From Bosea sp. 685 (lineage in GTDB: Bacteria > Pseudomonadota > Alphaproteobacteria > Rhizobiales > Beijerinckiaceae), in contig NZ_CP134779.1 in assembly GCF_031884435.1 (NCBI RefSeq), forward strand, positions 3,844,001 through 3,908,000: 64,000 nt of DNA, read 5' to 3'. The position numbers were made by a program, and so were the translations under genes. This document shows positions 1 through 54,679 of the stretch, piece after piece (within the stretch, counting starts at the first letter, position 1; every line of letters starts with the position of its first letter). The notes beneath the pieces are model-generated. The model ran no database searches. It was not told where the DNA came from and worked only from the letters and a program-made list of their open reading frames with translations.

Positions 1-861
1 GGCGATGATGGCGACTTTTGCGGCTGCGCTTCTTGCGCGGACGGCGTCGTAGAAGGTCTTGAAGCGCGCAGATGTCCGGATGGCAGCCAGCGCGGCCATG
101 TAGAGGGCTTTGCGGACGCGTCGCCTTCCGCCCCTGATCATGCGCTGTCCGCGCCTGCGCCCGCTGTCATTGTTGAAGGGCGCGAGACCGGCGAGCGCGG
201 CGATGGCCTTTGGCGAGACGTGGCCGAGTTCGGGCATCAGGGCGATGAGAGTGACGGCTGTGACGGGCCCGATGCCGGGCGCCGAGCGCAGCAGAGCTTG
301 CGTCCTGGCCAAGGTCTCATCTGCCCGCAAGGCCTCGCTGACGAGGTGCTCGAGCGTGGCGATCTCCGCATCGAGCCAGGCGAGATGGCGGGCGAGGCTG
401 CCGGTGGGATCTTGCCCCTCGCTGTCGCGGACGCGCTCGGCGGCGCGCATCTCGACGAGCTGATCGCGGCGTTTGTGCAGCTGTGCCAAGGCGTTGCGAG
501 CGGGATCGGAGGCTGCGTCGGGCATGAGCGCCAGCATGCGCGCCATCGCAGCCAGCATCTCGGCGTCGATCGCATCGGTCTTGGCCAGGCGGCCGGTGGC
601 GCGGGCGAAGTCGCGGGCGCGCGCCGGATTGATCCGGGCGAAGCGGCAGCCGGCCTGCTCCAGGGTCTGGCGCAGCGTGTGGTCATAGGGGCCGGTTGCC
701 TCGAAGGCGACGAAGCTGGCCTGGCAGTCGAGCGACGACAGCCAGGTCGCGATCGCCTCGCTCGTATTGGCGATCCGAAGGCTCGTCCCGCTCGTCTCCT
801 CGAACAGGTCGAGATGGCTCTTGGCGATATCGCAACCGATGAAGCAGGGGTGTATGGTCAT
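1..861 (-). CDS. IS110-family transposase (DEDD recombinase), 3' end cut off
   Basis: The protein catalyses insertion and excision of its own IS. The 287 visible codons start at ATG 861 and run off the window. The N-terminal DEDD (RuvC-like) domain shows Asp11 in IGCDIAK, Glu54 in FEATGPY and Asp96/Asp99 in KTDAIDAEML. The C-terminal Transposase_20 domain shows APGIGPVTA near residue 194 and the GLAPFNNDSGRRRG block near 225, with the presumed nucleophile Ser233. Family members are usually 300-400 residues, so only the tail is missing. The reading frame is intact over the visible part, so the element may be functional. Known for the family: a structured RNA from the non-coding end guides target and donor recognition. 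Confidence 0.9.
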   Translation of the reverse strand, partial: MTIHPCFIGCDIAKSHLDLFEETSGTSLRIANTSEAIATWLSSLDCQASFVAFEATGPYDHTLRQTLEQAGCRFARINPARARDFARATGRLAKTDAIDAEMLAAMARMLALMPDAASDPARNALAQLHKRRDQLVEMRAAERVRDSEGQDPTGSLARHLAWLDAEIATLEHLVSEALRADETLARTQALLRSAPGIGPVTAVTLIALMPELGHVSPKAIAALAGLAPFNNDSGRRRGQRMIRGGRRRVRKALYMAALAAIRTSARFKTFYDAVRARSAAAKVAIIA

Positions 862-1024
862 GGTGCCTGTCCCTGTGCTGCGAGGTCCGGTGCAAGCGGC
901 CTCGGTCAACTGTTCAGGATGGGGTCTTCGAACGCGGGCGGGAACCGAGCCGGAACGCGGTGTTTGCCACCCGGGATCCAACGGCTTCCCGCCCGCACCA
1001 ATCATGACACCAATCAAACACACA
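862..1024 (-). ncRNA. candidate IS110 bridge RNA in the left end
   Basis: The non-coding left end upstream of the transposase has the layout expected of an IS110 bridge RNA. A perfect 11-bp stem pairs 986-996 with 934-944 around a 41-base loop. Inside the loop, read on the minus strand, lie TGGATCCCGGGT (980-969), then a small hairpin GGTG-GCAAA-CACC, then a second unpaired stretch. A separate hairpin lies at 881-904. The 12-base stretch is identical to 1064-1075 in the palindromic repeat next to the IS, as a target guide would be. The stems and the match are seen; the RNA itself is inferred. Confidence 0.45.
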
Positions 1025-1103
1025 GGGATCCATGCCGGAGCCTAACCAGGCAACGCTCCGGCATGGATCCCGGGTCTCCTTGCAGTCGCCCGGGATGACG
1101 GCG
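1025..1103. repeat. palindromic intergenic repeat (type A), truncated at the IS junction
   Basis: GGGATCCATGCCGGAGC (1025-1041) pairs with GCTCCGGCATGGATCCC (1055-1071), followed by an outer arm ending in GGGATGACGGCG. An intact relative at 45725-45831 has both outer arms (CGTCATCC and GGATGACG). Here the left outer arm is replaced by the IS110 end, which suggests that the IS inserted into the repeat. Confidence 0.65.
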
Positions 1104-54422: not shown

Positions 54423-54679
54423 GAAAAAACGGCTCCCATTCAATCGTGCTCCGGCGGCGCGCGAACACGCCAACCGCGAGCAGGACTTGGACGGGGAACC
54501 GTCTTGAGGCGCCGGGAGCCTGCGACGCCCCGACACTCGATCAATAGATCCGGCACGCCGCGCGATCAAGCTTCAGCGCCAGATGGGAACGGGCGACTTG
54601 TCGATCTGACCTAGTCCCGGATTATCGGCGTCGCCGTATCGCGGCGACCAATGAAATGCCGACGCGTCGGATCGCACGA

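Follow-up and report, generated by a model that had tools for sequence, protein, structure and literature searches.

How does an IS110-type insertion sequence (IS) of Bosea sp. 685 come to lie inside a palindrome that is dispersed through the host genome, and is the guide for that palindrome carried by the element itself? The window analysed here, a stretch of 64,000 nt (G000:C2:3844001-3908000, G000 being the Bosea sp. 685 genome itself), opens inside the transposase gene and contains the left end of the element together with the palindrome. The original prediction proposed that the non-coding left end has the architecture of a bridge RNA and holds a guide for the dispersed repeat. This proposal is supported, and where one guide had been seen earlier, all four can now be named. 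It is very probable that a bridge RNA from the left end, predicted to be about 130 nt long, guides the IS110 recombinase to join the circular element and the palindrome at the dinucleotide CC. Being present in several copies, the element lets bridge-RNA targeting be tested in nature beyond the branch of IS621.

Organization of the element

The anatomy of the element, its ends, its core, the uniformity of its target and the covariation of guides with flanks and within stems can be read from the DNA itself. The full recombinase is a 308 aa protein (G000:C2:3843938-3844861) with its start codon at 861-859 of the minus strand. It carries PF01548 and PF02371 in a Pfam search, is matched by ISCro4 (9t56) and IS621 (8wt6) in a PDB sequence search, and its residues D11, E54, D96, D99 and S233 (hand-counted) line up with the residues that the available text of PMC11208158 gives as catalytic in IS621; both domains and the D-E-D-D and Ser residues of an IS110 group recombinase are present. 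The non-coding sequence comprises 163 nt upstream of the transposase gene as against 20 nt past the stop codon. The longer region is upstream, as in the IS110 group, and the longer downstream region of the IS1111 group is absent, only the 20 nt being found there. Coordinates of all features are collected in Table 1.

Table 1. Features of the IS110-type element and its target, in window coordinates
Feature	Position	Strand	Remarks
IS110-type transposase/recombinase CDS	1..861	-	truncated by window edge; Pfam PF01548 and PF02371
Non-coding left end, 163 nt	862..1024	-	holds predicted bridge RNA; boundary common to six copies
Predicted bridge RNA, about 130 nt	866..996	-	target-binding then donor-binding loop; structure kept in 15 left ends; single folds
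Donor-binding stem-loop	866..918	-	outer stem 918-915 with 869-866
Right donor guide (RDG) CACAGG	872..877	-	reverse complement of core CC plus left IS end TGTG
Left donor guide (LDG) ACAGTTG	907..913	-	equals last 7 bases of right IS end, six copies
Target-binding stem-loop	934..996	-	996-988 with 942-934, bulged A 987, 986-983 with 946-943
Right target guide (RTG) GTTCCGG	950..956	-	pairs with right flanks CCGGAGC, CCGGGAC, CCGGATC
Small hairpin between LTG and RTG	959..971	-	971-968 with 962-959; paired in 91.4% of cells
Left target guide (LTG) TGGATCCC, core CC included	973..980	-	equals left flank in 6/6 copies
Possible -10 hexamer CATGAT	1001..1006	-	spaced 17 nt from TTGCCT across RE-core-LE circle junction
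Core dinucleotide CC	1025..1026	-	common to both junctions and vacant site
Left target TGGATC plus core CC	1025..1032	-
Dispersed palindrome interrupted by element	1026..1070		exactly reverse-complementary arms, 1026-1040 and 1056-1070
Vacant target half-site ATGGATCCCGG, other palindrome arm	1063..1073	+

The genome contains six full copies, all of them integrated and each 1,110 bp long, and one left-end remnant (L007), as well as eight further weak matches (L008-L015) that stand outside the scoring described below. In all six full copies the left junction reads ATGGATCCC followed by TGTGTGTTTG and the right junction ACACAGTTG followed by CCGG, while the flanks outside the palindrome differ from copy to copy and whole-locus alignment is uninformative outside the element. 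Three copies share 100% identity, as they might if the common palindrome stemmed from duplicated flanks rather than repeated targeting; such an origin is scarcely credible, however, as flanks past the palindrome differ, the palindromes themselves differ in most copies, and so do the right targets. Repeated targeting of one kind of site is thus the reading followed here. The remnant (G000:C2:4523268-4523367) is an element that breaks off behind the RTG strand and continues into the right flank, with about 3 bp (CCG) common to both sides of the joint, and could have originated by a microhomology deletion or a guided event.

Target palindrome and core

The fate of other copies had been named as a check on the prediction, and 6/6 full copies do share both the type of palindrome and the place within it, with insertion at ATGGATC-CC-GG and the other palindrome arm to the left of each copy (6/6). 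The natural target sequence of the element is ATGGATCCCGGAGC, and the left flank in IS orientation ends in CATGGATCCC. L007 has the same left junction as the full copies; a second arm was not seen alongside. Intact half-sites (ATGGATCCCGG) number 205 in the Bosea sp. 685 genome, compared with 0 for the reversed control. When the vacant site is compared with both junctions, exactly two bases, CC, are common to all three, and the core is therefore CC; as is typical of the IS110 group, the same short core is found at both junctions and in the target. Among the copies of this and related elements scored below, the core place is occupied by CC at 36/36 left and 29/29 right junctions, and at 7 further right junctions.

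The right flanks of the six copies vary, being CCGGAGC in three, CCGGGAC in two and CCGGATC in one. Right targets that the RTG can pair in full account for 5/6 insertions vs 9/30 half-sites (Fisher p 0.024), or 6/7 vs 9/30 with the remnant added (Fisher p 0.011), the 30 half-sites being the first listed rather than a random sample and including one that forms the second arm of a palindrome already occupied.

Guides in the left end

The prediction pointed to 12 loop bases, here placed at 969-980 of the minus strand, that equal 1064-1075 of the plus strand in the adjacent repeat. This identity (TGGATCCCGGGT) is exact, and a 12-base match of the loop to the adjacent 86 bases arose in 2 of 5,000 shuffled loops. 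As a guide, eight of the bases (TGGATCCC) hold; the remaining GGGT is a coincidental identity with the other palindrome arm, since the base right after the LTG differs among left ends (G, C, T or A) and GGT lies in the inner hairpin. The second loop strand, expected to pair with the far flank, does so: the RTG pairs at 7/7 positions (one G.U) in five of the six copies and at 6/7 in the sixth. As in IS110 bridge RNAs, LTG and RTG pair to opposite target strands, and LDG and RDG (ACAGTTG and CACAGG) match the RE-LE junction. In 5,000 shuffled left ends, ACAGTTG occurred in 83 and CACAGG in 283, so a single donor guide is modest evidence; the conservation of the donor guides along with the IS ends is stronger evidence.

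From these pairings a sequence of events can be proposed. Excision would yield a circle, and a promoter would arise at its RE-CC-LE junction, by analogy with IS621 as described in the available text of PMC11208160 and PMC11208158. In the first loop of the RNA, TGGATCCC and GTTCCGG would pair with opposite strands of ATGGATC-CC-GGRRC in the palindrome, and in the second, ACAGTTG and CACAGG would pair with ACAGTTG-CC-TGTG, the junction in the circle of the element itself. The recombinase would then exchange strands at CC, thereby joining circle to target. That the RNA is made and bound by the protein, that the circle forms and that exchange occurs at the core is expected by analogy with IS621.

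At base 972, directly behind the LTG core, the main variant has G, whereas L004 and L007 have C and other elements A, C or T. Self-avoidance by a non-G base after the LTG core was considered and is not supported, since one of 13 element types does have G there (binomial 0.13).

Covariation of guides and flanks among relatives

Relatives were gathered from a genus search (9 of 67 genomes matched), an order search (12 of 397; own genome in both) and one GTDB scan (27 loci). Protein searches of the class (385 genomes) and phylum (398 genomes) at E 1e-72, in which the best few candidates per genome were scored, matched none of the other genomes. Scored copies are those whose left ends match a strict donor-loop pattern, which gave 49 hits, many of them to one and the same copy, and resolved to 36 distinct copies of 13 elements in 13 genomes (own included), 29 with a right flank. 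Loci with a diverged or missing left end stand outside the scoring (L053, L056-L061, L064, L066-L068, L075, L084, L085, L088, L093, L094, L097, L099, L101, L103, L105, L106, L108, L109, L116-L120, L124, L125, L129 and L133), as do the Bosea right-end pieces L086, L087, L092, L098 and L102. L134, which has an apparent 52-bp duplication, is included in the count.

Across the 13 elements, the left and right guides change along with the flanks. LTG positions 2-7 equal the flank in 33/35 scorable copies; LTG mismatches number three in copy L122 and one in G212; position 1 agrees in just 2/35, so the guide is effectively 8 nt long. When flanks were shuffled among elements, the left match of the real arrangement was attained in 0 of 100,000 shuffles (positions 2-7 with 12 elements, positions 4-7 with 13) and its right pairing (11 elements) in 0 or 1 of 100,000, depending on the measure, a significance that is somewhat overstated as related elements are treated as independent. 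Right pairing is partial in G032 and G301 (5/7), G063 (6/7) and G187 (mixed). Seven added right junctions of the Bosea genomes G051 and G003, located on other contigs, examined afterwards and kept outside the shuffles, gave pairing at 6/7 positions, all with the mismatch at the sixth place.

These data also bear on whether the recombinase protein alone reads the palindrome, in which case the stem would be regulatory or DNA-binding and the loop identity a captured flank. Insertion into such repeats is described for elements of other IS families as well (PMC1525189, available text), and a protein preference could be reflected in the 28 of 29 scored right flanks that start with CCGG. The loop, however, mirrors flank changes on both sides and in opposite strand sense, the donor guides match the IS ends, and in L054, where the right flank is CCCGATC in place of CCGG, the RTG follows as its exact complement, GATCGGG. 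Recognition by protein alone is thus very unlikely, and guidance by the left-end RNA remains the preferred reading.

Two copies in G187 deserve separate mention. The target of L122, TTTGCCTCC, matches its guide, TGTGCACCC, poorly and is an apparent off-target insertion. In L134, the left junction appears to carry a second copy of the element's initial 52 bp, which end exactly at LTG and core; guide and target repeats may have slipped against each other, or the insertion may have hit the DNA that encodes the element's guide.

Fold and possible promoter of the predicted RNA

The perfect 11-bp stem of the original prediction is confirmed, 934-944 (GCGGGCGGGAA) being the exact reverse complement of 986-996 around a loop of 41 bases. 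Perfect 11-bp inverted repeats are by themselves not unusual, with 46 starts in the window and 1-11 in ten dinucleotide shuffles, and the folding energy is modestly low (z -1.90 for 163 nt and -2.3 for 131 nt; range -1.9 to -3.1). Conservation of the stem in close relatives had been put forward as a further check, and in 15 left ends from 13 genomes it is kept with compensatory changes. The nine outer pairs form in 129/135 cells across these left ends; beyond them, the plain 11-bp register forms in 18/30 cells, compared with 58/60 for a bulged A 987 followed by four pairs. The bulged register thus fits better across the left ends, though the Bosea sequence alone can form the plain stem.

The model used for scoring consists of 9 bp, the bulged A and 4 bp, the inner hairpin, and the donor stem with its hairpin, and as a whole pairs 97.0% of 433 cells (15 left ends, 13 genomes). 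Two-sided changes are seen at 7 pairs in 20 cells, whereas in slid controls the paired share is 35-46% and such cells number 0-5; further pair types number 11, below the shuffled mean of 12.7. Compensatory changes are present in the hairpin between LTG and RTG, while the donor-binding stem-loop is paired in 100% of cells in the 15 left ends and is mostly invariant. In its inner hairpin, 904-897 pair with 889-881, one base being bulged. The model has 10 G.U cells and 2 A.C cells, by which selection appears to act on the minus strand.

No local hairpin was found in the 28 nt before the stem, whether the complete left end or the consensus was folded. A promoter and terminator scan of the linear site (700-1200) found none. 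On the evidence of sequence comparison, we infer that CATGAT and TTGCCT may form a promoter at the circle junction. The second and sixth bases of the hexamer are invariant and the leader is gap-free up to it in the 15 left ends; the comparison covers 10 junctions.

The opposite strand and sX15

A scan of the window against Rfam at gathering level found no bridge-RNA family; the sole match was a chrB-b RNA at 54480-54533 (minus strand; 57 bits, above cut-off). A lax Rfam scan matched RF02234 (sX15) to 857-1013 of the plus strand over the whole model (33.4 bits, E 3e-4), below its gathering score of 55. The functional transcript might accordingly be an sX15-type sRNA of the opposite strand, with the minus-strand fold as its mirror. 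That full-length match is set against a score under the curated 55, a single match at E 0.01 (L054; 41.8 bits, on the strand opposite the guides) in eight related loci scanned, the excess of G.U over A.C cells that favours the minus strand, and a guide polarity that fits the minus strand as well, all of which make this reading highly improbable and leave the minus-strand bridge RNA as the transcript considered here.

A search of 398 genomes with sX15 found 13 matches, spread over 5 genomes and with a single one above cut-off, and its stricter filters left no match in the Bosea sp. 685 genome. The AACAGTTG motif is kept in 6/13 matches (L137, L139, L140, L141, L143 and L145), always on the opposite strand, and in five of these six loci an IS110 transposase frame follows directly after the motif, three of the frames being identical; the three distinct frames among them passed Pfam. 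The seven matches in G1153 are 91-base stretches near contig ends and are without the motif. The sX15 consensus also matches nine Xanthomonas plasmid records at 76%. In plasmid pXCV183 of Xanthomonas 85-10 (L150), a frame on the other strand after the sX15 place starts with MNGIGIDVCKAKLFVG and soon stops; by eye, it is probably the start of a broken IS110 transposase. An annotated hypothetical protein near this place has no Pfam family.

RF02234, labelled a Xanthomonadaceae sRNA, thus covers the same region as the Bosea left end on the opposite strand. The sX15 family thus seems to be complementary to left ends of IS110 elements, one of them decayed in Xanthomonas 85-10, and is either a true antisense RNA or a family filed on the wrong strand. 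Schmidtke and colleagues reportedly described sX15 first, in 2012. Antisense RNAs restrain transposition in some other insertion sequences. An antisense RNA of the sX15 type would cover nearly all of the bridge RNA and could pair with its guides and stems. That some IS110 left ends are transcribed on both strands, with sX15 as an antisense RNA restraining RNA-guided transposition, is a speculative and rather unlikely idea. The sX15 link ties a catalogued sRNA to IS110 left ends and makes antisense control directly testable. In the literature, sX15 is named in a list in PMC6337395 (available text), and the available text of PMC3771888 does not mention it.

Comparison with known systems

The mechanism is already known in kind, and the Bosea element belongs to a further branch of the family, with some variant features. 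IS621, as described in the available text of PMC11208160 and in the structural work of PMC11208158, is alike in having a recombinase with DEDD and Transposase_20 domains, a left-end bridge RNA, LTG/RTG and LDG/RDG that agree in order and strand sense (PMC11208160), a 2-bp core and a REP-type target. The two differ in the core, which is CC in the Bosea element and CT in IS621; the available text of PMC11208158 gives the core T as nearly invariant among IS621 and related orthologues, so the CC core departs from this IS621-like trait and is unexpected from the published structure. The left end measures 163 nt compared with 191 in IS621, and the stem-loop that precedes the target loop at the 5' end in IS621-like orthologues was not seen in folds of the Bosea left end; the Bosea RNA would therefore be shorter, at about 130 nt vs the 177 reported for IS621. 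The LTG also differs from that of IS621 in its effective length of 8 nt. In IS621 the core takes part in all four guide pairings (PMC11208160, available text); in the Bosea element it is not within the LDG pairing, the LDG tail being AC, AT, AA, CA or CG in 15 left ends and never CC.

In ISEc21, a seekRNA from the non-coding region upstream of the gene sets the target, and natural redirection, with guide and target changing together, is described for ISEc21/ISMch6 and ISEc11/ISXne4 (PMC11187229, available text); the present work differs in following 13 elements of one clade along with repeat counts of 12 host genomes. Reported copies of the IS110 family members ISPa11, ISPpu9, ISPpu10 and ISRm19 all interrupt REP sequences and so resemble the Bosea element in hitting a dispersed palindrome; their targets and hosts differ, and no RNA guide is described in the available text of PMC1525189. 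Searches of the open-licence literature on self-targeting, Bosea IS110 elements, Rhizobiales palindromic repeats and IS110 antisense RNAs brought up no title or abstract pertinent to them.

Guides and host repeats

Four candidate repeats were counted in 12 host genomes, of which G032 and G187 carry other guides that fall outside the four. Among the 10 genomes whose element carries one of the four guides, the repeat that matches the guide ranks first in 7 (G000, G063, G003, G014, G457, G297 and G268), with a slight lead in G014 (153 vs 147) and with a reversed control that also reaches 78 in G268, where the count is thus partly composition; it is second in G051 and G301 and third in G212. As the guide tracks the commonest of the four repeats in most sampled hosts, the clade offers a natural series of retargeted elements. 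The Bosea sp. 685 genome also has two matches to Y1_Tnp (PF01797), separated by about 3 kb (G000:C2:4058244-4058567 and 4061288-4061623), which are possible movers of dispersed palindromes.
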